Below, in pieces: positions 19,801-35,562 of a DNA stretch of 44,589 nt. This DNA comes from Akkermansiaceae bacterium (GTDB lineage: Bacteria > Verrucomicrobiota > Verrucomicrobiia > Verrucomicrobiales > Akkermansiaceae), in assembly GCA_013041925.1 (NCBI GenBank), contig JABDRB010000032.1, forward strand, positions 1-44,589. The letters are read 5' to 3'. A program made the translations under genes and the position numbers. The notes beneath the pieces are model-generated. The model saw only the letters and a program-made list of their open reading frames with translations. It ran no database searches and was not told the origin of the DNA. Each line of letters begins with the position of its first letter. Within the stretch, counting starts at the first letter, position 1.

Positions 19801-19960
19801 CGTTCGTAAGCTTGCCCGCGGCTCCCACAGCCTAAGCTACCGCCTCCGCGCTGAGATCCCCGGCAGCTTCAGCGCCCTCCCGACCCAGGCCGAAGCTATG
19901 TATGCTCCCGAACTCAAAGCCAACTCCGACGAAATTAAAATCAAAGTCCAGGATCAATAA
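13880..19960 (+). CDS. Bacterial alpha-2-macroglobulin with N-terminal TPR region and thioester
   Basis: A 2026-residue exported protein that should trap proteases in the periplasm, or protect the envelope, through a reactive thioester. Signal peptide residues 1-23 (ending DTMA). Residues about 30-360 contain TPR-like helices (KKGNFKEAYDIYQQLL). MG domains follow; VYQPNQKVYGKFWVRQ marks the MG2-type domain. The bait/junction region lies near residues 1170-1270. The thioester motif is GCTEQTLNRF with Cys1488, and the following alpha-alpha toroid begins with LSDGGWGWFSGYG. The receptor-like C-terminal domain ends the protein. Bacterial family members are usually about 1500-1650 residues, so the TPR region accounts for the extra length. 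Near residues 785-830 there is an unusual Trp/Gly/Pro-rich insertion with nine Trp and a Cys-x-Cys. No pbpC (PBP1C) gene is adjacent, unlike in enterobacteria. Confidence 0.9.
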   Translation: MKRSHLKTLAAVTISLLITDTMAQESKHPTEKRQHQAEKLQKKGNFKEAYDIYQQLLTSNDSPHPAHILDRAQACLRKLNRISEIDALIENTVESYPGNTALLDQAAQLYTRLPHDGYIIAGEFKRGHHRGGGQYSDSKKRDRIRAIQLYLKALDQWPADRDHQHKASLYMRLASAVAMNQQGHDAWRLQILTDLTTLPDYEPGSRWHRGGRNPQGAPVNADGTPLFYSIPKSWDTATNDGERWRSALDQAAQLNPQLTDSNRSNWARFLHSQLGVTTMARYGWFRTIDVDDQKGILQLHTLKDTETVARLATGVKRFNLPVDQNFITLYKELSRRDEHAADRLIQIYLDRRQHEKAVTLLRSTIKEFANTSATKNRQKLLHQIVGNWGRIDPAQGASPAGSEPTIDYVFRNAQNVTVVAKEVDLNSIINNLWEHLEGNPVKLDWNRVRWGSLGDSLVNGARKKYVGKEVGRRTHTLKPRDHHWDTRASLSVPVKKAGAYLVSAELEGGVTTHTVVWLDATVIVRKNLKDGTLFYVADAITGTAIPSTQLEFFGYDQVRRKKPGLLRKYDVITKRITQTTGKDGTLIIKNGELPSRFQWMIRATSDQGTALLGFNRISSNYYHSGEFNQTKSFGITDRPVYQPNQKVYGKFWVRQARYDLTDASSFAGKKFTITIRDAAGNDVVKNRSVRADSYGGVEYNYDLPEDAKLGSYSVFLRAGNNHHGHHTFRVEEYKKPEYEVVIDAPKDPVMLGETLNATVKANYYHGAPVTQAKVKVKVLRRRHNDLWFPVGRWDWLYGGGYGWLDVERPWYPGWKRWGCICPPPFWWNRGGEQPEIVLEQELDINPDGTVKVEIDTSLAKAVHSDTDHRYEVTAEVVDASRRTIVGKGSIIAARQAYQVSVWLDRGYAHVGDPIHASIAARTADGKKISTQGKATLYRVTSNDGKVAEKEIKSWDINTTDETHSQLKLQAGQAGQYRLAAKMTDSKGRRIEGAILFTVRGDGQAEGGFQFSDIELIADQRTYRNGSTVKLLINTRRPDSTVMLSLRGGLQHQLIHINGQSTVVEIPVTLKDMPNFFVEAATVSNARVHTAVREIIVPPEKRILNVEVLPNDTRFKPRAKGKVKVRITDQHGEPVQGSLALTIYDKSLEYISGGSNVTDIKAHFWKWRRHFRGGFIHSLNHHERNVLKRRTEAMRILGAFGHSIADNMDVETEGAFYRGDGRAGAARPRSSMKSQARAMPMMEADNFAEKISDASGDASADTSAVMIRKDFADLVKWIGSVETDADGNAEVPVTFPDNLTTWKIKTWAMAHGTRVGEGTAEVITSKNLIIRLQAPRFFVEKDEVVLSAVVHNYLQSTQDAKVILELEGCTLKSSSPLAQQRIIDAGGESRIDWHTKVTGDGQAIVRMKVITADDSDAMEMTYPVYVHGILKQEAWSRVIDPKKKKTVINFKVPAERRPDQSRLEVRYSPTIAGSIIDAIPYLVEYPHGCTEQTLNRFVPTVIAQKLIREMDVDLEDVRNKRANLNPQEIGDDKVRMAQWKRWQRNPVFNKNEVNKMTRAGVKRLRQMQLSDGGWGWFSGYGERSYPHTTAVVVHGLIIAQANGAMVDAGMLDRGVTWLKNYEVRETERIRMWNNRKKNTKRYASAMDAFVRLVLAEAKHPNQEMLGYLFRDKNQLSVYGKSLTGMALHLAEDTEKRDAIIRNIEQFLVYDNENQNAYLNLGNSSYWWYWYGSEMEAHAWFLKLLAATKPQSKQARGLVKYLVNNRKHATYWNSTRDTAYCIEAIADYMRASGENNPDAEVTVFVDGKKIKSVNINKNNLFSYDNKVVIAGDALGTGDHKVEIKRKGDGPLYTNAYLTVFTKEDLIKNAGLEVKVDRAYYKLERIPATEKTAGTQGQVISHKVEKYKRIPLKSGDSLTSGDLVEVELHIHSKNDYEYLMFNDWKPAGLEAVDVRSGYTGNALGAYMEMHHEKTSFFVRKLARGSHSLSYRLRAEIPGSFSALPTQAEAMYAPELKANSDEIKIKVQDQ

Positions 19961-22439: not shown

Positions 22440-23270
22440 CTAGAGCCCATAAATCTCTGCCGCATTGCCACCCCAGATGGCCGCTTGCTCGCTCGAGCTC
22501 AAGGCGGAGGACATCTCAGCCACCGACTCGGCCCACGCTTGGTAGCTACCGCGTAGCAGGCAAACCGGCCAATCGGAGCCAAACATGACACGCTGTGGCC
22601 CGAAGGCATCGATGATGGTTTCAAAATAGGGGCGGAGAAGATCAACGTCCCACTTGTCGCCACGCACCTCAGTGATCATACCAGAGACCTTACAGCTGAC
22701 GTTTTCACGCTGGGCGAGCTCGCGGATCCCCGCAGCCCACGCCAGGTCAAATTGACCATCCTGAATGCATGGTTTGGCGATGTGATCGACGACAAATACC
22801 TGCTCAGGATGACGGTCGACAAAGCGGATCGTTTGGCTCAGGTGTTTAGCAAAGATCAGGATATCATATACGAGTCCGTGCTGGGAGAGCTGTTTGATCC
22901 CAGCGTTAAAATCCTCACGGAGGATGAAGTTGTCATCGGGTTCATCGTGGACGACGTGACGGACACCGACGAGTTTCGGGTGTGAGGCAAACTCCTCAAG
23001 CGATGCCCCGACGGCACTCTCGAGCAGCGGCACCCAGCCGACCACCCCATGGATCAGGTCGTTTTGTTCCGCCAGACTGAGCAGCCATCGGGTCTCCTCC
23101 ATCATCTGTCGGGCCTGCACGGCGACACATCCATCGATACCTGACTCGACTAATAATGGGGCGAGATCGGAGGGTAGAAAATCGCGCCGAATGGTGCCAT
23201 GTTCCTCACCCATCCAACCATAATCCGTGTCGTTGATCGCCCAAAAGTGCTGGTGGCTGTCTATCTTCAT
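22440..23270 (-). CDS. Amidohydrolase 2 family protein, probable L-fucono/L-rhamnono-lactonase type
   Basis: The 276-residue TIM-barrel protein starts MKIDSHQHFWAIND, the H-x-H metal site of COG3618-type lactonases. It continues through VVGWVPLL, VGVRHVVHDEPDD, FVVDHIAKPC and RVMFGSDWPVC (the Asp ligand). These enzymes hydrolyse sugar 1,4- or 1,5-lactones such as L-fuconolactone, the second step of non-phosphorylating L-fucose oxidation. I use ATG 23270, not the frame start at 23294, because AGGAAA lies just upstream of 23270 and homologues begin MKIDSHQHFW. It follows the SASA gene by 114 bases. A damaged copy of this gene sits at 29045-29318, about 85% identical by my hand count over the shared 273 bases. 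This intact copy therefore probably supplies the activity. Confidence 0.85.
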   Translation of the reverse strand: MKIDSHQHFWAINDTDYGWMGEEHGTIRRDFLPSDLAPLLVESGIDGCVAVQARQMMEETRWLLSLAEQNDLIHGVVGWVPLLESAVGASLEEFASHPKLVGVRHVVHDEPDDNFILREDFNAGIKQLSQHGLVYDILIFAKHLSQTIRFVDRHPEQVFVVDHIAKPCIQDGQFDLAWAAGIRELAQRENVSCKVSGMITEVRGDKWDVDLLRPYFETIIDAFGPQRVMFGSDWPVCLLRGSYQAWAESVAEMSSALSSSEQAAIWGGNAAEIYGL

Positions 23271-23384
23271 GATGTGTTTCCTGTTGTTTAGCATATACGG
23301 TGACTTGTGCAGAAACTTTCCGCTAATTTTCGCTGGCAGGAACCTGTCGGAGATCGGGCCGCGAACGGCAGCATAGGCATTACT

Positions 23385-25757
23385 TCAGTTGTCTGGAACA
23401 CTCAAAAGCCGAAAGAAGCGTTTCAATTCCACGCCAGACGGTGAATAAGTGAAAAAGACAAGAGGCCCAGTCGCAGCCACCGATTCAACGTCCGTCCAAT
23501 TGTCAGAATCCAAGCCGGGGTTGGTTTGCAAGGTGTAGGCATATCCCGGGAAGGCGTGCTCAAGAACAATGACCAAATCCCCATCACCATCGTAGTCCAA
23601 CGTTGGGTTCGTGGTAACCGGGAGAAACGAAAGCAGCGCTCCGGCAGTTGCGGTGCCGAGCTGTTGCTGACCGGCTGCATCGAAATGAAGATTGTCGCCA
23701 GCGAGCCCGAAACCATCGGTATCCGTCCACACTGTTAAGGGATCCGCGTCGGCAACCGTGACCTGTGCCGCCCGTATGGTGGCGAGGTGGCCGCTGTTGA
23801 GGTTGGTCTGACCGTCCGAAAGACGAGTTACCACAAATGGCAGATCGGCTCCGTAGGTTAGACGCACATCGGCGATGAATGCAGCCAGATTAGCTTCGTA
23901 GTTGGCGGCGTGGGTGTCTGACGCATCCGATTCCCCCTGCACCCATACCATGCCCTCAAGTTCTAAAATCGCGTTCGGATACTCGGCTGCGAGTGCGGTA
24001 AGCCCGTTCGTGACAGTTTGCTGGAATGATGCATAGCGAGGCCCGTCACCTGTGGTCGTCGCATCTCCGCCGGCTTTCCAGTCCACCGCAAGGTTGGTGC
24101 CACCAAAGGCATATTTGAGAATCGCCACCCGGATTCCTTTCCGACCGCCGAGGCTGTCGGAAAGCCTTCGCCCGAGGGTGATTTCGGGGCCGAACTTGAT
24201 CTCTCCACCCGAGAATACGGTGGCTGGGCGGAGTGTCGTCAGATTGTCCCTAGGGTAAAAATCCACATCGTCCTGCGGCTGCTGAAGATTGACCGGGCTG
24301 GTGGGAAGACCCGACGCTACGGGACGCCCGTCGGCATTCGACTGACCGCCGAGCAAATAGACGTGGATGTGCGTGACTTCCGCAGCCAGGACGGGTGCCG
24401 CCTGCACCGCCACGAAGGTGTCATCGAAGATTGAGGAGCTGGTGACTATGGCGTTGCCGGAAGTATCGGCTAAGGATGCCCCGGCGCTGACCTGCATTCG
24501 GAGCGTTCCGGTGCCGGTCGGAGTGACTTCCACGGTGAAAATCCCTGGGGATGTCTCGACGATGGCTCCAATGGTGATCGGTGCGCTGCCGGCATTGTTG
24601 AAATCCGAGGCGTCCACCGTTGCCGCGTCCATGTCCTCGCTGAAGACGATTGTGTAAGTGATCACGGAATTCTCCTCAAGCGGACCGCCGTTGAGGTCGT
24701 CGGTAATATTGCTGCCCGCAAGAGTCGGAGGCGTCACATCAAACTCATCCACAGTGATGACGATGTCATCGGTGACTGGCGGACTGGTGACCAGGGAATT
24801 GCCAGCGGAGTCGTTGATGACGCCCTCGGACGCGACGGCGATCTGGAGGGTGCCGGAGGTCGTTGGGGTCACCGGGACGATAAATTCATTGGGCGCGACC
24901 TTGATAATCGTTCCCACGCTGATCGTCGCCGTGCCCGCGTTCACGAAATCCACCGCATTGAAAGTGGTTTCATCCATGGACTCATTGAAAACCAGCGTGT
25001 AGTTCACCAGCGAGTTTTTCACTATTGGGCCGCCCATGCGGTCATCCGAAACGGTGAGGACGACCGGAGGAGTGGTGTCTGGCAGGGAAACAAACGCGGC
25101 TGCCACCGTGACCGGGCGCGCGGTGCTTCCCGTGAAAGTGGGCGTCAGCAGGCCGGGCGTCGCGACGAACTGATAGCCTGCGCCACCCCCGGCGGAACCC
25201 ACCGGCCCGCCGAACAGCGGGGTTAGTGGCGATTGTGCCGCCGCAATGGTCCCATTGTTGGCATTGGACGCAACCACAAAAGAATTCGCAGCCGTCGTGG
25301 TCAGGTTGACCGACAGACCGTCGCTGCCGTTACTCACAGAGACTCCGGTAGCGACATTGGAAAGGGCGATCACGGAGACGCCGATTCCGTTCGTGTTTCC
25401 GCTGAAGCTTACCACGAGGTTCCCGACGCTGGTGGGGTTGTCCAGATAGTAAATCGCCGTGGTCTGGGAGCCTGTCGAATAATTTTGCTGGATCGCCTCG
25501 CTCAGACCGACGCCAGCGTAGGTGACAGACGACACTGTGCGGGTTCCTCCGCTACCTTCCGCAGACAAAGTCACGACTAGTTTGCCCGACCCGACTGGGT
25601 CAAATCCCGGCAAATCCGCCGGGGTGATCGTCCGAATGGCAGTCCCCGAGGCCTCGATCGTGTAGCTTGCCGTATCGTAAACGATCAGTTGTGCGGATGC
25701 GGATTCCCATGCGAGAACGGCCGTACAAGCGGCGAAGAGTATGGTGCTGATTTTCAT
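23385..25757 (-). CDS. Secreted SASA-type esterase with N-terminal shared domain and two Ig-like domains
   Basis: From ATG 25757 the protein has 790 residues: signal peptide (1-22, ending ASAQ), a beta-rich domain about 25-223, two homologous Ig-like repeats (about 228-340 and 341-452; each has DDxxGGP and a VF-E-MD segment), an SGNH/SASA catalytic domain (about 462-712) and a C-terminal beta domain ending FFRLL. Catalytic motifs are LLGGQSNADG (Ser473), WVQGESDASD (607-611) and DNLHFDAAG (Asp688, His691), so the triad looks complete. Residues 25-223 closely resemble the C-terminal domain of the FecR protein at 27471 (for example AIYYLDNP, and SPLTPLFGGPVGSAGGG against APLTPLFGAPVGSATGG). The frame opens further upstream to 25811 but MKISTILFAACTAVLAW is the natural signal peptide start. 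It probably deacetylates a surface-bound glycan, which is an inference. Confidence 0.82.
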   Translation of the reverse strand: MKISTILFAACTAVLAWESASAQLIVYDTASYTIEASGTAIRTITPADLPGFDPVGSGKLVVTLSAEGSGGTRTVSSVTYAGVGLSEAIQQNYSTGSQTTAIYYLDNPTSVGNLVVSFSGNTNGIGVSVIALSNVATGVSVSNGSDGLSVNLTTTAANSFVVASNANNGTIAAAQSPLTPLFGGPVGSAGGGAGYQFVATPGLLTPTFTGSTARPVTVAAAFVSLPDTTPPVVLTVSDDRMGGPIVKNSLVNYTLVFNESMDETTFNAVDFVNAGTATISVGTIIKVAPNEFIVPVTPTTSGTLQIAVASEGVINDSAGNSLVTSPPVTDDIVITVDEFDVTPPTLAGSNITDDLNGGPLEENSVITYTIVFSEDMDAATVDASDFNNAGSAPITIGAIVETSPGIFTVEVTPTGTGTLRMQVSAGASLADTSGNAIVTSSSIFDDTFVAVQAAPVLAAEVTHIHVYLLGGQSNADGRPVASGLPTSPVNLQQPQDDVDFYPRDNLTTLRPATVFSGGEIKFGPEITLGRRLSDSLGGRKGIRVAILKYAFGGTNLAVDWKAGGDATTTGDGPRYASFQQTVTNGLTALAAEYPNAILELEGMVWVQGESDASDTHAANYEANLAAFIADVRLTYGADLPFVVTRLSDGQTNLNSGHLATIRAAQVTVADADPLTVWTDTDGFGLAGDNLHFDAAGQQQLGTATAGALLSFLPVTTNPTLDYDGDGDLVIVLEHAFPGYAYTLQTNPGLDSDNWTDVESVAATGPLVFFTYSPSGVELKRFFRLLSVPDN

Positions 25758-25920
25758 GGTGTCTGGAGGCGCCGTGTGAATCGGCGTCGCCATCCTGCAA
25801 GGCGAGGCCACCGGAACCGGATGTTTCTCATTCTAGCGATGCCCGTTAATTATCTGTAGATTCTGGTTGATTGGTGAGGCTTTCACTCCTGCATCGCCGT
25901 TCGCCATACCTGAGCTGATT

Positions 25921-25959
25921 AAAAAAAAACCCCACTCCCCAGTGATGAGGAGAGGGGTT
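25921..25959 (-). terminator. Rho-independent terminator of the PEP-CTERM gene
   Basis: Read on the minus strand, AACCCCTCTCC pairs with GGGGAGTGGGGTT (one T-T mismatch) around a loop of about eight bases. A run of at least nine T follows. It lies 30 bases after the stop of the gene at 25989-26738 and upstream of the esterase gene, so the two minus-strand genes are separate transcription units. Confidence 0.9.
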
Positions 25960-25988
25960 GGAAGAATGATTAATTTCCCGAGGCCGGG

Positions 25989-26738
25989 TTACTTACGACG
26001 ACGGAGGATCAGGGCGAGTCCACCGAGGCCGAGAAGAGCGGTGGTGGATGGCTCGGGAACGACGGCTTCAAAGGCGACCAAGCTTCCCGCTTCGAGAGCC
26101 GTGCCTCCGCTAAGTGTTTCACTGAATGTGCCGGCTGTTGCGACATCGCCGTGAGCAAATATGGTCGATTGGTTGCCGTCAACAGCAGCTGAAAAAATCG
26201 TCAAATCCGCATTTGTGGCAGTTAACGTTGGCGCAGGACCATTGTAGTCGTTGTTTACACCAGCCACGAATACATAGCCCCCATCAGTGGGCGTCGTGTA
26301 ACCGAGGCTACCGTTGCTCGTGCGGGCATCTGAGTCCGCAACGGCTGCAACGTTGGCCAATGAGAAGACCGCGTAGGCGTTGGACAGTCTTGCTCCCATA
26401 TTTTCATTTGCATTGATAACGACATCGCCTGTGCTTGCAATCGGGTTAATCAGGTAGGCGTAAGAGGAGATGAATTTGTCGCCATCAAAGTTGTTGACAA
26501 CAGTCATCGACTGCCCGCCGAAAGTCGCAGAGGTGACGCCGTCGGAGTTTTCTGCGCCGAACAGGGCTACTACAGCGTTGCCGCCGTCAAGCCCCCAACC
26601 CGAAACGGTGATGGTCACATCATCTCCATTGTTGGTGCGAGCCGATGCAGCAGCCATCGAATCGGTCAGTGTGATAGCCGCATTTGCGGATCCCAATGCG
26701 AGACCAGTGACGGCGAGGGGTAATAGGATGTTTTTCAT
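25989..26738 (-). CDS. PEP-CTERM surface protein
   Basis: The 249 residues begin with a signal peptide (MKNILLPLAVTGLALGSANA) and end with a textbook PEP-CTERM signal: VPEPST, a hydrophobic stretch (ALLGLGGLALIL) and RRRK. An exosortase elsewhere in the genome should cut the signal and hand the protein to the surface or extracellular matrix. The body (about 22-220) is beta-rich. It matches, weakly but in the same order, the domain shared by the esterase at 23385 and the FecR protein at 27471 (SATFGGQSM, YLINPIASTGDVV, AVFSLANVA). The protein is acidic with almost no Cys. It is transcribed away from the sigma factor gene, with 190 bases between the starts. The function of the domain is unknown. 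Confidence 0.88.
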   Translation of the reverse strand: MKNILLPLAVTGLALGSANAAITLTDSMAAASARTNNGDDVTITVSGWGLDGGNAVVALFGAENSDGVTSATFGGQSMTVVNNFDGDKFISSYAYLINPIASTGDVVINANENMGARLSNAYAVFSLANVAAVADSDARTSNGSLGYTTPTDGGYVFVAGVNNDYNGPAPTLTATNADLTIFSAAVDGNQSTIFAHGDVATAGTFSETLSGGTALEAGSLVAFEAVVPEPSTTALLGLGGLALILRRRK

Positions 26739-26928
26739 TATTTTAGAGGTGTAATATGTTCGTAGATTTCAAGAGTTCTCAACCTACTCACCTAAGTAAT
26801 CCCCGATTTGGCGTCTCCGTTAACAAATTTCTGAAAAAAAATGGATTTAAGTTATCGGTAATCAGTGGGACTATATTTGGTTTTCAGGAAAAAAAGCGTT
26901 AACGCTGGGGGGAATTCAGCATACCTTA
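26739..26928. promoter_or_regulatory. Divergent promoter region of PEP-CTERM and sigma factor genes
   Basis: These 190 bases hold the starts of both transcription units. A perfect 10-base palindrome GCGTTAACGC lies at 26896-26905, 23 bases before the sigma GTG start. On the other side, TTAACGG (minus strand, core 26818-26823) lies about 80 bases before the PEP-CTERM ATG. The same TTAACGG (core 25844-25849) lies about 87 bases before the esterase ATG. The AAC core would suit the -35 element of an ECF promoter. I could not derive a convincing -10 element, so this is only a candidate site. Confidence 0.35.
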
Positions 26929-27474
26929 GTGACAGCAATGCAGAACAACGCCATTCAAGACGCCGAATTCGTCGGCCAAATCACCAGCCACCAGGCCGAG
27001 CTACATGCGTTCATTATTTCGCTGATGCCAGGAACGGAAGGGGCGGAGGATGTCTTGCAGGAGACTAATCTGGTGCTTTGGGAGAAACGCAAGACATTTA
27101 AGTCTGGGACAAACTTCCGCGCCTGGGCCCTCCAGATCGCCCGTTACAAGGTCTTGGGGCACCGCCGCAAGCTGGCGAACCTTGGCTACCTTATTTTCGA
27201 CGACGAGCTGGCGGAACTGATCACCGAAGAATGTGAGGCCGAGCCTGACGAACTCACCACTAGGATGAAAGCCCTGAAAAAATGCCTTGCCCGGCTGAAT
27301 GAACCCGAACGCCAGTTGATTGAGCACCGCTATCTTACCGAATCCAATCTCGTCGAATTTGCGGAAAAATCTGGGCGTAGCGCAGATTCGCTGAGGGTGA
27401 CCCTGTTCCGAATCAGAGCAGGTCTCAAAAAATGCATCCTCGGAGAACTTAATATCAAGGACATACTCTCATGA
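26929..27474 (+). CDS. ECF-type RNA polymerase sigma factor (Rhodopirellula/Verrucomicrobium family)
   Basis: The 181 residues have sigma region 2 (ISLMPGTEGAEDVLQETNLV followed by LWEKRKTF and FRAWALQIARYKVLGHRR) and region 4 (LKKCLARLNEPERQLIEHRY, then a helix-turn-helix FAEKSGRSADSLRVTLFRIR). This pattern fits the small sigma-70 factors numerous in planctomycetes and Verrucomicrobia. The start is GTG 26929 or ATG 26938. A GGGGGGAA block at about 26907-26914 is better spaced for the GTG. The stop overlaps the FecR gene start in an ATGA, indicating translational coupling. I infer that it drives the divergent PEP-CTERM gene and perhaps the esterase. Confidence 0.9.
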   Translation: MTAMQNNAIQDAEFVGQITSHQAELHAFIISLMPGTEGAEDVLQETNLVLWEKRKTFKSGTNFRAWALQIARYKVLGHRRKLANLGYLIFDDELAELITEECEAEPDELTTRMKALKKCLARLNEPERQLIEHRYLTESNLVEFAEKSGRSADSLRVTLFRIRAGLKKCILGELNIKDILS

Positions 27475-28931
27475 AGCGCCGGGAACTCGAAACTCACCTG
27501 CAAGACCTCTTCGATGGATGCATCGACCCTGAGGCTTTCTACATGCTGCAAGAAGAGCTGCGCGACAATCCGGAGGCGCGGGTGACCTACCGCGAATACC
27601 TCCACCTCCATCATGCATTGCGGTTCCACGCAAAAGGGGGGAACCTACTCCCCGTGGTACCCATGGATCTCGTGGTCGAGCGGCGCCAGCGGCGCTCGAT
27701 GAAACAGGCCGGGCTGGCGGCGGTGGCGTTGCTTGTCCTCGGTGCCCTGATCATGGGCCTCATCCTCTCTAGCCCAAAGGAAGCGACACTCACCTTCACC
27801 ACCAGCCCAGGAACCGATCTGGTGGTGAGCCACGAAATCAACGGTGATAATCTACCAGAGGGACAAGCTCTTGAGCCGGGTTCCCAGCTTATCCTTGGCC
27901 ACGGTGCCGTGGAACTTGAATTCGCCTCCGGGGTGCGCGCCATCCTGCGTGGCCCTGCCGAGCTGATCCTGCTCCGTGAAGATTTACTCGACCTTGCCTA
28001 CGGCACCGCATGGTTCCATGTACCGCAAAAAGCAGTCGGCTTCCAGGTGCGCACCCCTGACCTAGTCCTGACCGACCTTGGCACCGAGTTTGGCATACTT
28101 TCCCAGCCGGACTCCCTGGCCGAAGTGCATGTTTTCACAGGTAGTGTCGAGGTGCTGAATCGTCACGGGCTGAAACACAAACAGGTCATCGAGGCTGACC
28201 ATGCCCGGGTGGCCGGACCGGCGGGCCGCTGGCAGGGCACCGCACCGCGCAGCGATCATTTCCTCACCAAGCTGCCAGACAGGGTGCCAGTAAACATCGA
28301 GGCGGATGATTCGGTTGCATTCACAACCTCCCCAGAAAATAAGATGATCAATAAGGGCCGTTACACCTTTAAATCCTCCGACGAGCTGTCCGGATTCGAT
28401 GCAAGTGGATCCGACAAGTTGGTGGCTACATTGTCTCATGAAAAATCAACGATTACCGAAGTGACCTACGGCGGGGTCAGGATGTCACTTGGTGTCTGCT
28501 CCAACACATCGGCCATGCGCCAAACCGCCATTTACTACCTCGACTCCCCGGGCACCACTGGAGATCTGGTTGTGGTTTTCAAAGGTCGTCAGCGCGCACC
28601 TAACGGAGTTGGCGGATCCCTTCTTGCACTCTCGAACACCGCGAACGGTGGACCTGCGGTTATTGCCCAATCGGGGGAAAGATCGGTAAGATTGACCACC
28701 AAGGTGGATAACTCGTTCGTGGTGGCCGCCCACATCTCAAATGACCAACAGCCGAACGCGTTTCTCACGGCACGAGCACCGTTGACTCCGCTCTTTGGCG
28801 CACCAGTAGGCTCCGCGACAGGAGGGTCTGGCTACATGCATGTAAAATCTCACAGCTCAGTGATGCCTGCCTTTTCCGGAAACGGGACAGCAGCCATTAC
28901 CGTAGCGGCAGCATTCGACCCGCACCCCTGA
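27471..28931 (+). CDS. FecR-domain transmembrane regulator with C-terminal esterase-like shared domain
   Basis: The 486-residue product is the probable anti-sigma factor or sensor partner of the preceding sigma factor. Residues 1-60 are an anti-sigma-like cytoplasmic helix region (HLQDLFDGCIDPEAFYMLQE). Residues 80-99 are a single membrane helix (GLAAVALLVLGALIMGLIL). About 110-245 is a FecR domain (VELEFASGVRAILRGPAEL, GTAWFHVP, TDLGTEFGIL, VHVFTGSVEVLN). About 295-482 is a beta domain with VTYGGVRMS, AIYYLDSPGTTGDLVVVF and APLTPLFGAPVGSATGGSGY. The latter is plainly related to residues 25-223 of the esterase at 23385. In this phylum FecR proteins often carry a LamG-like C-terminal domain. 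Here a different domain takes that place. The ATG overlaps the sigma stop by four bases. Confidence 0.85.
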   Translation: MKRRELETHLQDLFDGCIDPEAFYMLQEELRDNPEARVTYREYLHLHHALRFHAKGGNLLPVVPMDLVVERRQRRSMKQAGLAAVALLVLGALIMGLILSSPKEATLTFTTSPGTDLVVSHEINGDNLPEGQALEPGSQLILGHGAVELEFASGVRAILRGPAELILLREDLLDLAYGTAWFHVPQKAVGFQVRTPDLVLTDLGTEFGILSQPDSLAEVHVFTGSVEVLNRHGLKHKQVIEADHARVAGPAGRWQGTAPRSDHFLTKLPDRVPVNIEADDSVAFTTSPENKMINKGRYTFKSSDELSGFDASGSDKLVATLSHEKSTITEVTYGGVRMSLGVCSNTSAMRQTAIYYLDSPGTTGDLVVVFKGRQRAPNGVGGSLLALSNTANGGPAVIAQSGERSVRLTTKVDNSFVVAAHISNDQQPNAFLTARAPLTPLFGAPVGSATGGSGYMHVKSHSSVMPAFSGNGTAAITVAAAFDPHP

Positions 28932-29350: not shown

Positions 29351-30316
29351 TCAGTCCTTAAGCCGATCGATCCCCGCGTCGTAGTCCCACTGCTTGTCGA
29401 TGACTGGCTTGAGAATCTTGAGCACCTCGGCGAGTAATGCTTGGTCGAGCGGTTCCTCGCGCCATGCCAGGTTTCGCTCAACGGAGCTCGTCCGCGAGCT
29501 ACTGAACATCGTCGTTTGAAACGGAGCATCTTGGCAGGAAAATTGGAACGCCAACTTTGCCAGTGACGCCCCCTGCTTTTCACAGTAATCAGCCGCTTGC
29601 CCAAAAAGGCTCCGCTCAGCCTCACCCGCAGGATGCCAGTCGGCAATCGGGCCGCCGGTCAGTAATCCGCTGGCAAAGGGGGAAGCATTAATCATCCCGA
29701 TGTTGCGCGCCTTGCAGCCATCCACCAACTCCAGCCCACGGGTGTCGCTCAGGCAGTAATGGTTGTGCAGAAGAATGGCATCAACGGGTGCTTCAGCAAC
29801 CACGCGCTGCCACAGATCCATCGGGTAAATCCCCGCGCTGACCGCACCAATCACACCTTCCTCCTTGAGCTTCACCAGCGTCGGAAACCCTTCCTCAAAG
29901 GCACTCTCGGTCAGAGAGAAATGCTGATATTCAAAATCGTGCAGGTGGACGATATCAAGGTAATCCACACCGAGACGATCCATGCTTTCCTCGAGCCCCG
30001 CGCGGATTCGGGCTTCCGAGTAATCGAGCTCGTCGGTCCCGTAGCCACCCGGTGCCGTGTATTTCCCCGCTTTGGTTGATAGAAAATACCGGTCGCGTGG
30101 GACGTCCCGCAGTGCCTTGCCGAGCACCGATTCCGCCACCGTGCCACCGTAGGCCGGGGCGACGTCAATATAGTTGATGCCGGCATCAAGCGCGGCATGC
30201 ACCGCACGGATCCCCTCACCCTCGTCAATGGTTCGAAAAACGCTGCCCAAGGCCGAAGCCCCATAACTGAGTCGGGACACATTCAGTCCCGTGTTGCCCA
30301 ATACTTGATAGTCCAT
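29351..30316 (-). CDS. Aldo/keto reductase, probable L-fucose (L-galactose) dehydrogenase
   Basis: A 321-residue NAD(P)-dependent TIM-barrel oxidoreductase. The AKR tetrad is present: Asp51 and Tyr56 in YIDVAPAYGG, Lys82 in LSTKAGKY and His126 in IVHLHDFEY. The HDFEY neighbourhood resembles plant L-galactose dehydrogenases and bacterial L-fucose dehydrogenases, which oxidise the sugar at C1 to the lactone. The cofactor-binding end has MFSSSRTSSVERNL. It is 17 bases from the zinc dehydrogenase and is followed by the ruined lactonase gene, which supports a lactone product. Substrate choice between L-fucose and L-galactose cannot be fixed by sequence, but the GH95 gene in the same run supports L-fucose. 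Confidence 0.85.
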   Translation of the reverse strand: MDYQVLGNTGLNVSRLSYGASALGSVFRTIDEGEGIRAVHAALDAGINYIDVAPAYGGTVAESVLGKALRDVPRDRYFLSTKAGKYTAPGGYGTDELDYSEARIRAGLEESMDRLGVDYLDIVHLHDFEYQHFSLTESAFEEGFPTLVKLKEEGVIGAVSAGIYPMDLWQRVVAEAPVDAILLHNHYCLSDTRGLELVDGCKARNIGMINASPFASGLLTGGPIADWHPAGEAERSLFGQAADYCEKQGASLAKLAFQFSCQDAPFQTTMFSSSRTSSVERNLAWREEPLDQALLAEVLKILKPVIDKQWDYDAGIDRLKD

Positions 30317-30333
30317 GATCGATTGCCGGCCTA

Positions 30334-31395
30334 TTATGTGTTTTCAATTTGCACCTTGATCACATCCGCTCCAGTCGCCTCACCAATCGCATCCTGCAAC
30401 TGCGTAAAGGGAAAACTGCGCGTGATCAGCGGACGCACATCGATCCTGCCGGATACGACCAGCTCGATGACACGCTCAAACACATTGGCAAATCGCCACG
30501 ACCCGATGTAATCCAACTCACGGGTAAGCAACGCATTGGCTGGGATCTCGGTGCCATCCGGTAAGGTGCCGACTTGCACGACCGTCGCCCCACGGGCACT
30601 CAGGCCAAACGCTTGAGTCAACGCAGCGCCAACACCTGCGGCTTCAAACACGACTTCAAAACCATCAGGAGCAAGCTCGGCGGCCTGCGCTGCGCAGTCG
30701 GGGTCGGTGGGGTCCAGCGTTGCCGTCGCCCCCTGCTCTTCAGCAAAGCTGCGGGCAAAGGGTTTGACATCGGAAACCACCACCTTGCTCGCGCCAAAGG
30801 CGGTGGCGAGTAAAAGTATCATCTGACCGATGGTGCCGCCGCCGGTGATCAGCACCGACTTACCGGACACTCCACCAGAACGCTGCACGGCATGGGCCGC
30901 CACACTCATCGGCTCAAGCAGGGCACCCCAGGCAAATTCAAATCCATCGGGTAATGGCGCGCAGTTCCTCGCAGGAGCCACCACATATTCCGCAAAACAT
31001 CCATCGCTCGGTGGAACCACACTGGCAGAGCCAAAATAAACCATGTCTGGGCAAAGGTTATAACGACCTTGCCGGCAAAGTTTACACCGACCACACGGGC
31101 GTGACGGATCGACCGCAACCCGTGTGCCGACGAGTCCTTCATTCGACTCATCACCGGAGGCAACGATTTCACCCGCGAATTCGTGTCCGAGAATAAACGG
31201 ACGAGTCGGGATGAAATTCCCACAGCGCCCGTGCGCGTGATAGTGGAGATCACTGCCGCAGATGCCGGCAGCGCGCACCTTGACGAGGACTTCCTCAGGT
31301 CCTGGGACGGGACGGGGTGCTTGTTCGAGGCGGATATCCTCCGCGCCGTGGAGCACGTAGGCTTGCATAGTTTGGGTATCAGACGAAGCGATCAT
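30334..31395 (-). CDS. Zinc-dependent medium-chain dehydrogenase, L-idonate/threonine dehydrogenase-like
   Basis: The 353 residues have the GroES-like and Rossmann domains of zinc alcohol dehydrogenases. Catalytic zinc ligands are Cys46 (GICGSDLHYH) and His71-Glu72 (GHEF). Structural zinc ligands are Cys101, 104, 107 and 115 (CGRCKLCRQGRYNLC). The nucleotide-binding loop is ITGGGTIGQM. The HYHxxGRCG segment is like sugar-acid dehydrogenases such as L-idonate 5-dehydrogenase. In this operon it may oxidise a fuconate-derived intermediate, which is an inference. The ATG overlaps the symporter stop by one base (TAATG), indicating coupled translation. An alternative start at 31368 (MQAYVLHG) is possible. 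Confidence 0.85.
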   Translation of the reverse strand: MIASSDTQTMQAYVLHGAEDIRLEQAPRPVPGPEEVLVKVRAAGICGSDLHYHAHGRCGNFIPTRPFILGHEFAGEIVASGDESNEGLVGTRVAVDPSRPCGRCKLCRQGRYNLCPDMVYFGSASVVPPSDGCFAEYVVAPARNCAPLPDGFEFAWGALLEPMSVAAHAVQRSGGVSGKSVLITGGGTIGQMILLLATAFGASKVVVSDVKPFARSFAEEQGATATLDPTDPDCAAQAAELAPDGFEVVFEAAGVGAALTQAFGLSARGATVVQVGTLPDGTEIPANALLTRELDYIGSWRFANVFERVIELVVSGRIDVRPLITRSFPFTQLQDAIGEATGADVIKVQIENT

Positions 31396-33053
31396 TACAT
31401 GATGGAGTAGAGAATGGCCATGAGGATCAAGAGAATCAGAGCCATGATCCGTGGATCAGTGATACCTTGAATTTTACCTTCCTTGAGGAAGGCCAGAGGT
31501 GTATCCCAGACCAAGCCTTTGATGTTGGCTTCTGCGGGAGCTGGCGTGGCCAGACTGGTGATGATGTAGGTGGCCAGGCACAGCGCGAAGAAGATTCCTC
31601 CTACCAGCATGAAGGGGATGGCCACAAATCCTGCCACCCATGAGGTTTCGGTGAAGATCGGGTGATCCACCAACACAGCGGTCATGTAAAGCACACCGAC
31701 CACGATGTTGAAGATCATGGTGGCGATGGCCGCCTGCTTGGTCCCGCGCTTCCAGAACACACCGCCGAGGAAAATGGTGGTGATCGCCGGCGCAAACATC
31801 ATCGGGATCTGGTTGATAGCATCGAAGATGCTGGGGAACTTACCACCCTGGGTGGACCAGGCCATAGCCAGCAACACCACCACGATGGCGGAAATACGGC
31901 CGAACCAGACAAGCGTCTTGTCTGGGGTGTCCGGCTTCAAGCGCTTGAGGACATCGGTGGATGCCAGCGTTGCGATGCTGTTGAGCGCCGCAGCGACCGT
32001 ACTCATCAGTGCGGCCAACAGTCCGGCAGCGAATAGCCCTAGGAAGCCCGGCTGGAGTAACTTCTCCATCAGCACCATCAGGGTGTCGTTTTTCTCGGAA
32101 CCAATCTCGTCCCGGTAAAGCACGTAGGCCATCATGCCGGGAAGCACCATGCAGAAGACCGGAAGGATTTTGAGAAAACCACCAAAGATCGCTCCGTCGC
32201 GGCCGTCTTTCTCGGTCTTGGCGGCCAGCACGTTCTGGACGATGGTTTGATCGGTACACCAGTACCAGATCCCGAGGATCGGATACCCCACCAACACACA
32301 CAGCCAGGAATACTTGTTGAGTTCGCCGTCCTCATTCCAAATCCCCTGCAACACCGTGGGCGAAATGTTGTCACCATTCGTAGCAGAAAGACTGGATGCC
32401 GCCGCCTTGAGCTCGGCGTAGGTCGTAATGCCTTTCTGCTCACCCAGCGCCTGCCAGGCGAGGTAGGTCAGGGTGATGGCGCCGGCCAGCAGGATGACGA
32501 CCTGAACCAGATTGGTGATCATCACCGCCCGCAAACCACCAAGAACCGTATACACTGCCGACAGCCCAGCCATCAGAATGATGGCGGTGATCACATCAAT
32601 TCCAAAGAACTTCTCCATCAATACAGCACCCGCATAGAGGCTGATCCCGATGTGCACCAGCAGCGCGGAGAGAATGAAAATAATACCCAGAATCGTTCGT
32701 GTGGTCGGGCTATAGCGCCTCTCAACGTATTCAGGCAGGGTGCTGAGCTTGCTGCGGAAGTAGAACGGAGCAAAGACCAGACCGAGGATGATGAGGCAGA
32801 AGGAGGCACCCCATTCGAAGTTACCCACCGGCATCCCGTCGCCGAAACCACCGGCAGCCAGTCCGACCAGATGAATGGAGGAGATATTGGCGCAGAAAAG
32901 CGAGATACCGATGACCGGCCAGGTCATTGATCGGCCACTCAAAAACAGCTGACTGGTGGTGGTGTTCTTGCGAAAGCCGACAAAGATGCCGAGCGCGATG
33001 ATGGCGATCAGGTAGCCGACAATGATGCCGATATCAAGGTTAGAGACGTTCAT
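31395..33053 (-). CDS. Sodium/solute symporter (SSS family), probable fucose importer
   Basis: A 552-residue inner-membrane protein with about 13-14 hydrophobic helices. It starts DIGIIVGYLIAIIALGIFVG and contains SSS-family marks: FLSGRSMTWPVIG, LPEYVERRYSP, GGLRAVMITNLVQ, GILYWCTDQ-like wording (here IWYWCTDQTIVQNVLAAK) and AALMSTVAAALNSIATLAS, which carries sodium-site Ser/Thr residues. These are SglT-like sugar transporters. The gene lies between the GH95 gene (49 bases upstream) and the zinc dehydrogenase (one-base overlap), so it probably imports the released monosaccharide with Na+, which suits a marine cell. Confidence 0.9.
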   Translation of the reverse strand: MNVSNLDIGIIVGYLIAIIALGIFVGFRKNTTTSQLFLSGRSMTWPVIGISLFCANISSIHLVGLAAGGFGDGMPVGNFEWGASFCLIILGLVFAPFYFRSKLSTLPEYVERRYSPTTRTILGIIFILSALLVHIGISLYAGAVLMEKFFGIDVITAIILMAGLSAVYTVLGGLRAVMITNLVQVVILLAGAITLTYLAWQALGEQKGITTYAELKAAASSLSATNGDNISPTVLQGIWNEDGELNKYSWLCVLVGYPILGIWYWCTDQTIVQNVLAAKTEKDGRDGAIFGGFLKILPVFCMVLPGMMAYVLYRDEIGSEKNDTLMVLMEKLLQPGFLGLFAAGLLAALMSTVAAALNSIATLASTDVLKRLKPDTPDKTLVWFGRISAIVVVLLAMAWSTQGGKFPSIFDAINQIPMMFAPAITTIFLGGVFWKRGTKQAAIATMIFNIVVGVLYMTAVLVDHPIFTETSWVAGFVAIPFMLVGGIFFALCLATYIITSLATPAPAEANIKGLVWDTPLAFLKEGKIQGITDPRIMALILLILMAILYSIM

Positions 33054-33102
33054 GGTTTTTTGTCTATTGGGTTAGAATGGGACGGTGGAGAAATCGATAC
33101 GA

Positions 33103-35562
33103 TTAGCGCTTGAGACTGATGTGCATGGTCACCTCCTCTGCGGCAGGCAGCGTGACTTGTTGCTGGTTGGCAGCGCTCGCCTTGGCGGCCTTGGCATTCC
33201 CCTTGACCACCTTGAGCTGGGAAATCTCAGCAGGTAATTCGAGGTTAATCGTCTGGGCCTTGCCCGATTGCAGGGTGACCTCGACGCCATCGGCAGTCCA
33301 TGCCAGACGCTTGATTTCAATCTGGCCACGGCAAAGGACACCCTCGATGGTTCCTGTCGCCCATGCTTTGGGCAGGGCGGGGAGGAGTTTAATTTCGCCA
33401 AGCTCGGAGGCGACCAGCATCTTGATGACTACGGACGGCTGACCACCGCTGATGTCCATGTTGAACAGCGTGCGGCGGTTGTGCATCGAGGCGAGGTTAT
33501 TGAGCCAGAATCCGTAAACAAGGTGCTTGAGGCAGTGGTGGGCAATCTCGCCGTGGCCGAGGCTGGCGGCGACCTGTCCGAGCTGGACGATACCAAAGGA
33601 CATAAACCCACGCTCGTTGTCTTTCCAGTAGCGTTCGAGTTTGTCTTCGACACTCTTGATGAATGCGCTGCGCAGTTTGGGGCTGTTCGCGATTTCTGCA
33701 GGCAGGCCGTCGTAGAGCGGGTAGAGCTGGGAGGAATGGCGGTGGGCGTCATTGTTGCCCAGTTTTGGTGTCAACCACTCCTTGATGATCCCATTTTCAG
33801 CCACCATGTATTCCGGCATTTTGGTCAGCATTTTTTCCCAAACGGCGATCTTGTCGGCATTTTTGCCGAGCTTACGGGAAGCGGCAATCAGGTTGGTGAG
33901 CAGTTCTTTCGACGAGGCCACGTCCATCGTTGCGTTGAACGTCGCCTGTGATTTCGACCCTTCAGGCCAGTTTTCAGGCGACTGAGTGGGAGAGAAGATA
34001 AATTTTCCGTCGGGACCTTCTTGGAGGTAGTCTTCAAAGAAGATCGCGGCTTGCTCCATAAACGGCAGCGCACGCTCGCGCAGGAACTTCTCGTCACCAG
34101 TGTAGAGATAGTAATCGTAGAAAAAATGGGACGCCCATGCCGCGCCGGTGACCCACATGCCGCCGGCAAAGTTTTTACCGAAGGCATTGTTGTAGCCGTG
34201 GGTGGAGGTGCGCGATGGCAGCACGATACCGCGGGCGCCGTAGAAGTGCTTCGCGTTGAGCTGCATATCGGGGACCAACGACTCAAGGTAGCTGACGTAG
34301 GCGAGCATGAGTTCGGGGGTGTTGCCCATCAGCATGCTGGCGATGGCGGAGGGAACGTTGCCATTGTGCGTGTAATCGCTGGCCCAGCCGGGGACGTAAG
34401 TTCCACCCCAGACTCCCTGCAGGTTCGGTGGCAGCTCGCCGGTGGCACAGATGATGTTGTATCGGCCGGCGTCGAACTGTTTCTCGAACCAAGCGAGGTT
34501 CATGTTCTCAAAGGTCGACTCCTTCATCAGTTGCTCGGTCGGCTTCTGGTGATCCGCGCCGCCACCGAGGTCGAGCTTCATGCGGTTAAAGAGCTTTGCA
34601 TGCAATGGGACGTGCCTAGCAAGCAGCTTGCCATAATCCGCTGGCAGTGCGTCGAGGGTTGATTTTGCGGTGTTCTCTTTCACCGTGAGGAGGTTGATTT
34701 CAACAAGCAGGAGAACGCGGTCTGCACCCTTGATGGCAAGCGTTCCGTCTTTTTGGGGCTCGCTGGTGCCGCCGGTGACGATCACGCGCGCCTTCCCTTC
34801 GACCGACTGGATACTGCCGGGATACGAGCGGAGGAAGCGGGCGCTGAAGCCGAGCGAGCTTTCCGTGGCCGTGCTCCGGATATCGCCGAAGTGCTCTTTA
34901 AACATTTCGTCGGAGCGTTTGTTGATGTCGCCGTCATTGTTCAGTTCTTGGCTCGGCTCTCGTGGTTCGAGCTTCAGTCGACAGTCGAGCGATCCCGATT
35001 TCGGGCCGGTGAGCAAGATTGCCGCCACGCCGTCTTTACGGGAGACGAAAGTCCGGCGTTCAAAGACACCGCGGTCGTCGGCCCACTGGACAACGGCTTC
35101 GGCTTTTTGAAAATCCACTGAGCGTCCGTAGTCGCGGACTTCGCCCTTCGCCTCACCACGGATGGAAAGATCAAAGGCAGGAACAAAGAAGTCGGGATAC
35201 ATGAACCCCTTCTGTTTCGAGTGCTTGAACTGAAGTTCCTCCGCCTCCTTGTAATTTCCTTCAGCGATGAGCCTGCGGAGCTCTGGCAGGTGAGCCGACT
35301 GATCAGGCGGCACATGGGGTTTGCCCATCGGCATGAACAGACGCTCGTGAGTGAAGATGATCCGCTCGTCAAGTGGTTTACTCTGGATATTAACACCCAT
35401 CGTTCCATTGCCGGAAATCAGACCTTCTTCCCAAGTCTTTCCAGGTTGGGAGCTGATGAAACCACGTTCGGGGACGGGGAGCGACTCAGAGGCTAGGGTC
35501 GTCGTGGATGTGATCATACTAAGAAGGCCCGTGAGGCCGAGGGTGAAAATTTGCTGTTTCAT
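33103..35562 (-). CDS. Secreted GH95 alpha-L-fucosidase
   Basis: The 819-residue protein has a signal peptide (1-24, ending TLAS) and GH95 features in order: an N-terminal beta-sandwich starting with TWEEGLISGNGTMGVNI; NLQGVWGGTYVPGW followed by SDYTHNGNVPSAI (the Asn pair that activates water in this family); GMWVTGAAWASHFFYDYYLY in the (alpha/alpha)6 barrel; SPTQSPENW with the likely acid Glu; and AHRHSSQLYPLYDG. A C-terminal beta domain (from about 720) closes the protein. GH95 enzymes cleave terminal alpha-1,2-L-fucose, and some cleave alpha-L-galactose, by inversion. It opens the minus-strand run symporter, dehydrogenase, reductase, so its product is probably what they use. Confidence 0.92.
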   Translation of the reverse strand: MKQQIFTLGLTGLLSMITSTTTLASESLPVPERGFISSQPGKTWEEGLISGNGTMGVNIQSKPLDERIIFTHERLFMPMGKPHVPPDQSAHLPELRRLIAEGNYKEAEELQFKHSKQKGFMYPDFFVPAFDLSIRGEAKGEVRDYGRSVDFQKAEAVVQWADDRGVFERRTFVSRKDGVAAILLTGPKSGSLDCRLKLEPREPSQELNNDGDINKRSDEMFKEHFGDIRSTATESSLGFSARFLRSYPGSIQSVEGKARVIVTGGTSEPQKDGTLAIKGADRVLLLVEINLLTVKENTAKSTLDALPADYGKLLARHVPLHAKLFNRMKLDLGGGADHQKPTEQLMKESTFENMNLAWFEKQFDAGRYNIICATGELPPNLQGVWGGTYVPGWASDYTHNGNVPSAIASMLMGNTPELMLAYVSYLESLVPDMQLNAKHFYGARGIVLPSRTSTHGYNNAFGKNFAGGMWVTGAAWASHFFYDYYLYTGDEKFLRERALPFMEQAAIFFEDYLQEGPDGKFIFSPTQSPENWPEGSKSQATFNATMDVASSKELLTNLIAASRKLGKNADKIAVWEKMLTKMPEYMVAENGIIKEWLTPKLGNNDAHRHSSQLYPLYDGLPAEIANSPKLRSAFIKSVEDKLERYWKDNERGFMSFGIVQLGQVAASLGHGEIAHHCLKHLVYGFWLNNLASMHNRRTLFNMDISGGQPSVVIKMLVASELGEIKLLPALPKAWATGTIEGVLCRGQIEIKRLAWTADGVEVTLQSGKAQTINLELPAEISQLKVVKGNAKAAKASAANQQQVTLPAAEEVTMHISLKR

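Follow-up and report, generated by a model that had tools for sequence, protein, structure and literature searches.

The window analysed here is a stretch of 44,589 nucleotides from an Akkermansiaceae bacterium (GenBank assembly GCA_013041925.1, contig JABDRB010000032.1), and our subject is a module of four genes within it, which encode an extracytoplasmic function (ECF) sigma factor, a FecR-type regulator, a PEP-CTERM surface protein and a secreted esterase. A single extracellular domain, here called X, recurs in the last three.

A shared domain in regulator, surface protein and enzyme

The sigma factor gene (26938..27474, plus strand) is a member of the Rhodopirellula/Verrucomicrobium family TIGR02989, scoring 158.4 bits against a curated cut-off of 124.55. 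Its open reading frame (ORF) opens at a GTG at 26929, and the ATG at 26938 is the likelier start, judged from the position of the candidate promoter described below. The gene overlaps by 4 bases that of the FecR-type regulator (27471..28931, plus strand), which matches PF04773 at 28.1 bits (cut-off 24) and at 30.9 bits in a six-frame search. The regulator consists of an N-terminal part of about 75 residues, one predicted membrane helix, the FecR domain and, at the C-terminus, domain X (28311..28919, plus strand), the presumed sensor; its single hydrophobic stretch spans residues 81-99, with a hydropathy peak of 2.73 at residue 81. Divergent from this pair lies the PEP-CTERM gene (25989..26738, minus strand; PF07589 30.1 bits, cut-off 20.7, and TIGR02595 29.5 bits), most of which is occupied by a diverged X (26064..26675). 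The esterase gene (23385..25757, minus strand) encodes a further X (25092..25691), linker repeats and a catalytic SASA domain of the carbohydrate acetylesterase family (23631..24365; PF03629 94.6 bits, cut-off 24.8), which covers residues 483-727 of the 808-residue ORF read from the first in-frame GTG (23385-25811); the signal peptide suggests the ATG at 25757 as the actual start. A preliminary description of this DNA had placed the four genes at these positions and in these families, in agreement with the ORFs and profile scores.

That description had also claimed that the FecR C-terminus and the esterase N-terminus share a domain, and the alignment bears this out: esterase residues 66-240 (numbered in the 808-residue ORF) match FecR residues 305-482 at 49% over 183 amino acids (E 6e-38). 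The two X copies give a Smith-Waterman score of 357, while 300 shuffles gave a mean of 44 and a maximum of 72. FecR domain X has no Pfam match. Judged by the letters of the window alone, the FecR and esterase copies are certain. The further claim, of a diverged X in the body of the PEP-CTERM protein, is weak from the window alone. In single-pair searches this body matched FecR at E 1e-6 and the esterase at 0.002, with scores 9.4 and 7.4 standard deviations over shuffles, respectively, and a profile of five other X copies gave E 7.9e-6 but with a substantial correction for composition bias (18.8 bits); in our larger survey database, neither the FecR nor the esterase X reached 1e-4 with this body. 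Our acceptance of the copy rests chiefly on its counterparts in the sister loci L077 and L160, which are unmistakable.

Structural comparison, which the preliminary description had proposed for all three regions, was run on two of them. The AlphaFold2 models of FecR-X (predicted local distance difference test score, pLDDT, 85.5; predicted template modelling score, pTM, 0.86) and of the PEP-CTERM protein (pLDDT 79.2, pTM 0.76) are both all-beta with a corresponding strand order, the second model not being independent as its alignment included other X copies. Neither Foldseek nor VIA returned a confident solved-structure match for X, and we dropped any fold identity: the top Foldseek match had E 7e-4 yet a template modelling (TM) score of 0.19, and the best VIA matches reached Z 5.4 for FecR-X and 5.2 for PEP-X.

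Recurrence in sister loci

A profile search for X in 288 genomes of the order yielded 59 matches in 25 genomes, 35 of them in open frames longer than 800 amino acids; a scan with the single FecR as query gave no matches. Among sampled FecR C-termini X occurs in 3 of 127, namely in the window, L077 (genome G026) and L160 (genome G260). In each of these three loci a sigma gene is followed by the FecR gene, and both a PEP-CTERM gene with X and a SASA esterase gene with X are present (3/3); in the two sister loci all three copies of the domain are clear. The placement of a single domain in the regulator, the PEP-CTERM protein and the esterase alike, which had been proposed from the window, is therefore recurrent. 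The preliminary description held that wide occurrence of the domain without association with FecR/sigma pairs would speak against its proposal; X is indeed widespread, but each of the three sampled loci with a FecR-X also carries PEP-X and esterase-X. We rejected an exclusive tie between X and FecR, having identified three FecR copies as against 59 X matches in 25 of the 288 genomes (the matches were not all opened).

These observations also invite an account by local duplication, in which close genes exchanged a mobile extracellular domain and FecR-X is a mere spacer or an inherited ornament. The abundance of X in long open frames that are not FecR genes suits such an account. The X tree does not: the FecR copies of the three loci, which belong to three genera, form one clade (support 100/98), whereas the PEP-CTERM and esterase copies are intermixed. 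FecR-X is thus a separately inherited copy rather than a repeatedly made fresh duplicate. The PEP-X copy of the window sits on a very long end branch (4.78).

Domain and partners change together within one FecR clade

In a tree of the N-terminal parts of FecR proteins (124 rows, FastTree), a clade of 12 members (support 100) includes the window. The members of this clade carry five different C-terminal domains, whose mutual BLAST similarity is limited to a short linker: X (window, L077 and L160), a second domain (L191, L049 and L058), an HpiC1-like domain (L078 and L081), an F5/8-like domain with scores below the Pfam cut-off (L197 and L198) and a fifth domain (L089 and L084). A neighbouring gene with the same domain as the FecR protein (E 1e-5) was present in 9 of the 11 testable clade loci, where random pairing predicts 2.1 and only 2 of 200000 shuffles reached 9. 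Collapsing close pairs to one locus left 7 of 9 against 1.7 expected (17 of 200000 shuffles). For these counts L081 was left out, its contig being without the divergent side, and the borderline L089 (E ~1e-5) was taken as a non-match; L197 and L198 entered the table after their match was known. The domain and its partners thus change together, with the sigma and FecR core unchanged. Moreover, four mutually dissimilar domains of one FecR clade are each found also in a neighbour, which local duplication does not readily explain. The L197 record is labelled Deltaproteobacteria (UBA12015), and its FecR C-terminus shares 95% identity with that of the Akkermansiaceae locus L198; the record is probably a mislabelled or mixed assembly.

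Survey of FecR C-termini and their neighbours

For a wider survey, we took 105 regions around TIGR02989 matches (the window, 4 stretches of its own genome and 100 of relatives; L029 was not used). A FecR-like ORF lay directly downstream of 114 of 121 sigma ORFs, the other 7 being dropped, and the 107 C-termini of at least 120 amino acids were used (7 of the 114 were shorter). Six pairs of regions overlap and were retained in the shuffles. An ORF of the same region matched the FecR C-terminus (E 1e-5) in 12 of 107 cases, while 5000 shuffled pairings gave a mean of 1.54 and a maximum of 6. Matches of FecR C-termini with PEP-CTERM bodies (5/107 vs 0.13 expected), of FecR C-termini with other ORFs (9/107 vs 0.89) and of PEP-CTERM bodies with other ORFs (15/101 vs 0.53) were all more frequent than in any of 10000 shuffles. 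The replication sample comprised 20 new regions (the first half of the 40 planned), drawn from four other genomes and picked blind to domains, two of these genomes being already known to contain X somewhere. The corresponding counts were 2/19 (0.10 expected; 26 of 10000 shuffles as high), 4/19 (0.51; 13 of 10000) and 8/18 (0.50; 0 of 10000). A universal rule of domain sharing between FecR and its neighbours was nonetheless rejected, as 95 of the 107 C-termini had no neighbour match at E 1e-5.

Full sets of regulator, PEP-CTERM protein and enzyme also exist with domains other than X: L072 combines Laminin_G with a metallophosphoesterase, L049 and L191 have the second, common domain with GDSL-type esterases at or just below Pfam cut-offs, and L177 has a SASA esterase. 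Sharing between PEP-CTERM bodies and neighbouring ORFs was seen in 19 of 74 bodies near a sigma pair and in 5 of 45 farther off; L161 and L162, where no sigma gene was found within their 20 kb, show it too. Sharing between PEP-CTERM proteins and enzymes is therefore not confined to sigma/FecR loci, a further point on the side of local duplication.

Pfam assigned the FecR C-termini (n=124, after L099, L127 and L025 were dropped from the 127) to the overlapping families Laminin_G_3 (58), HpiC1-like (9), Laminin_G_2 (8), CBM96 (7) and F5/8 type C (3). Outside the window, 34 neighbour ORFs matched, and 20 of these were scanned with Pfam. Fifteen proved to be ester, sulfate or phosphate hydrolases (5 SASA esterases, 2 GDSL-type, 3 metallophosphoesterases, 4 sulfatases and 1 glycerophosphodiesterase); the remaining 5 had no catalytic family, and none of the 20 had a glycoside hydrolase. 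By eye, large partner enzymes (for example the window esterase and those of L049, L072 and L056) have a recurrent C-terminal W and an R.F.R-like motif, which may represent a separate sorting or anchoring module. In L067 (10225-15522) and L075 (4985-9755) a neighbour shares the FecR C-terminal domain, and the pattern extends there beyond PEP-CTERM loci; by eye we take these neighbours to resemble planctomycete-type cytochrome/DUF1549-DUF1553 proteins.

The same data bear on a different kind of sensing, in which FecR-X gauges X proteins crossing the periplasm toward the exosortase, either through direct pairing or through competition for a shared partner, so that sigma activity tracks how much X protein is made or stuck. 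It comes near to the proposal of the preliminary description, that the external domain of the regulator competes with the secreted proteins or assembles like them. Regulator and products have the same fold, FecR-X keeps its own lineage beside that of the products (100/98), as expected of an interaction partner, PEP-CTERM genes lie beside 5 of the 6 above-cut-off sigma genes of the genome, and co-swapping fits as well. However, there is no evidence of homotypic contact, and two features of the survey fit ligand sensing better: lectin-type FecR C-termini are common (the 58 of 124 with Laminin_G_3), and most C-termini have no matching neighbour. L084, in the same clade, also has an unmatched PEP-CTERM neighbour. 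We consider sensing of export or assembly unlikely, if still a serious contender.

Candidate promoters

GTTAAC was listed among A and T runs in a 6-mer search of upstream regions, and a gapped 4-mer pair search returned mostly A/T-rich pairs. The hexamer is enriched upstream of sigma genes (20/140) and PEP-CTERM genes (16/119), where 771 other upstreams lead one to expect about 2 and 1.7, respectively. Allowing one mismatch, TGTTAACGT occurs in 17/140 sigma, 12/119 PEP-CTERM and 8/771 other upstreams. Sigma genes are preceded by 24 TGTTAACG sites (one mismatch allowed), of which 17 begin 36 to 50 bases upstream of the gene. The sites were chosen by the -35 part alone; similarity of the -10 parts between sigma and PEP-CTERM sites averaged 8.1 of 13 within a locus versus 5.55 between loci (9 loci; 1 of 20000 shuffles). 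The -35 rule missed the better sigma site of L077, recognised by eye only.

The window contains two candidate sigma promoters of this type, GTTAACG-N16-ATACCTTAG directed toward the sigma gene (26898..26929, plus strand) and GTTAACG-N17-ATTACTTAG directed toward the PEP-CTERM gene (26792..26824, minus strand). The pattern GTTAACN{16,19}ATNNNTTAG was derived from both of these sites, which match it by construction, so that only the lack of others is informative: the 3.28-Mb genome has no site beyond these two, with 0.65 expected by base composition and 1 found with the reversed control. In L160 the sigma, esterase and PEP-CTERM genes are each preceded by such a site. Where a PEP-CTERM body matches another ORF, the PEP-CTERM gene comes first, on the same strand and within 400 bases, in 20 of 29 cases, making read-through to the partner plausible. 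The regulon predicted for the window sigma factor would be the sigma/FecR operon together with the divergently oriented PEP-CTERM gene. In many loci the -35 element lies about 40 bases before the sigma start codon (26898-26938 in the window); with a promoter so near, the sigma mRNA would be nearly leaderless. The stretch TCAGAAAT is conserved directly before the GTTAACG box of the PEP-CTERM promoters of L077, L049, L058 and the window, and the sigma genes of these four loci showed none.

Since sigma-type promoters mark the genes with matching domains, they add to the case against local duplication, which we hold to be slightly less likely than sensing of export. A further reading that we rank a little lower again, as a speculative possibility for the verrucomicrobial ECF/FecR circuits of this clade, takes the outer domain of the regulator as an address tag that has to equal the tag of its exported products and is exchanged with them as a set, permitting a like-with-like reading of the export or surface state, with GTTAACG and a private -10 for each circuit.

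Genomic context and the candidate ligand

Next after the esterase gene, on the same strand, is an amidohydrolase gene (22440..23294, minus strand; PF04909 167 bits) resembling L-fucono-1,5-lactonase (NF052480 288 bits, below the cut-off of 400). On the other side of the module, genes for an aldo/keto reductase, a zinc alcohol dehydrogenase, an SSF symporter and a GH95 protein (alpha-L-fucosidase family) occupy 29351..35562 on the minus strand (Pfam, NCBIfam). From these assignments, the module probably sits inside an L-fucose utilisation cluster with genes on both sides. Pfam also identified a sulfatase gene at 11852-13714. We infer that the ligand is a fucose-rich, acetylated or sulfated glycan. 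Adjoining the sulfatase gene is that of a 2026-residue secreted protein (13880-19960), which by eye looks like a protein of the alpha-2-macroglobulin type.

A signal might instead arrive from an outer-membrane TonB receptor, as in classical FecI/FecR/FecA-type signalling, and the sigma factor and FecR are of that general kind. FecA-type receptors need an STN domain for signalling to FecR. The genome, which is 98% complete, yielded no STN domain in a search whose control detected it in 4 of 14 genomes, E. coli included; nor does the contig of the module carry a TonB barrel, the three of the genome lying on other contigs. FecR should therefore sense by itself. The STN search disfavours a FecA-type route, which we regard as very improbable.

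The genome has 25 PEP-CTERM matches and two exosortase matches (exosortase 146 bits). TIGR02989 matches (E 0.001 or better) number 44 in one genome of the same genus and 42 in another of the order. In genome G012, also of the same genus, eleven TIGR02989 matches lie within about 104 kb of one contig (C2, ~162-266 kb; L052, L065, L068, L069 and L090), and a PEP-CTERM gene is within 1500 bases of 22 of its 24 sampled sigma/FecR pairs.

A proposed sensing circuit

We favour, at a probability of roughly 55%, a reading in which this module is an ECF/FecR analogue of the clostridial SigI/RsgI systems, the regulator sensing a glycan with the same module that its targets use. The four genes would then form a small self-contained sensing circuit. 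FecR would hold the sigma factor at the inner membrane, with its outer domain X as the sensor, and release of the sigma factor would follow when X encounters its ligand, for which a fucose-rich, acetylated glycan, whole or as a fragment, is the likeliest candidate. Once free, the sigma factor would transcribe the operon that encodes it as well as the divergent PEP-CTERM gene, and the esterase gene, perhaps together with the fuconolactonase-like gene, would be expressed by read-through. With the same X present in the PEP-CTERM protein (a presumed surface binder) and in the esterase, all three proteins, the sensor included, would be aimed at one ligand, and related loci would use other modules likewise. 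In favour of this reading stand the excess of domain sharing within loci, the co-swapping in one FecR clade, the candidate promoters, the lack of an STN match in the genome, the lectin-type C-termini and hydrolase partners, the probable L-fucose genes flanking the module and the RsgI6/Xyn10D precedent described below.

Several observations weigh against this reading. No GTTAAC site lies directly upstream of the window esterase, and the gap between the PEP-CTERM and esterase genes contains a hairpin followed by a T run (25935..25952, minus strand), possibly a partial terminator that would limit read-through; the hairpin is weak evidence, because shuffles yield as many such sites (5.7, versus 6 in the region). 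The -10 parts disagree in 2 of the 9 loci compared (L025 and L077), and the PEP-CTERM neighbour of L084 lacks the domain of its FecR despite belonging to the same clade. Outside some clades, as the 95 unmatched C-termini make plain, a shared domain is not a general rule. Carbohydrate binding by X is unproven, the best fold match reaching only Z 5.4, and the PEP-X of the window, given its divergence, may bind something else. Finally, FecR-X should lie in the periplasm, so a polymer would need prior cutting before it could be sensed.

The co-swapping of the domain suggests a means of pairing a sensor with its target proteins. A verrucomicrobial genome may encode dozens of sigma factors of this type with no assigned stimulus, and such bacteria have been connected with algal polysaccharide degradation (PMC8857213). 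Should the FecR outer domain reveal the ligand of the targets, and the promoter combine a common -35 with a private -10, then both the stimulus and the regulon of many orphan sigma factors could be proposed from sequence. PEP-CTERM surface proteins would, if this is true, gain a regulator, and the RsgI principle would extend to a second, unrelated regulator family.

Comparison with known systems

Our open-access literature search, covering titles and the openings of abstracts, found no description of this ECF/FecR arrangement and no paper naming the TIGR02989 model. The main text of PMC8857213 mentions GH95 in Akkermansiaceae metagenome-assembled genomes and is without the words sigma, FecR or PEP-CTERM, and the excerpted text of PMC7406223 mentions FecR once, about that of E. 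coli. The window sigma factor is a member of the TIGR02989 family; new here are the domain matching and the candidate promoter. With PEP-CTERM/exosortase sorting systems the genome shares both the motif and an exosortase, and one reported case of PEP-CTERM gene control is RpoN-dependent rather than ECF/FecR-based (PMC9850573). The FecI/FecR/FecA system resembles the module in its ECF sigma factor with an overlapping FecR gene, but the genome yielded no STN receptor domain and the window FecR has an additional C-terminal domain.

The preliminary description knew of no described system with this arrangement; that holds for ECF/FecR pairs as far as our search extends, but the principle was already known in SigI/RsgI. 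In Clostridium thermocellum, the outer module of a membrane anti-sigma factor binds polysaccharide and can resemble the target enzyme, the GH10 module of RsgI6 being 57% identical to its target Xyn10D (PMC4711584). The C-terminal modules of RsgI proteins vary (CBM3, CBM42, PA14 and GH10), and the sigma factor drives itself and the enzymes (PMC4711584, PMC12203970). Likewise, the outer module of the window FecR is related to a module of its presumed target enzyme, the targets here resting on predicted promoters. The sigma and anti-sigma families differ, the sigma factor here being TIGR02989 and RsgI_N being absent from the Pfam matches of the window FecR up to E 1, and the predicted targets are a neighbouring PEP-CTERM surface protein and an ester hydrolase instead of a cellulosome. 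The window module is thus like SigI/RsgI in anatomy and is not a member of that system.

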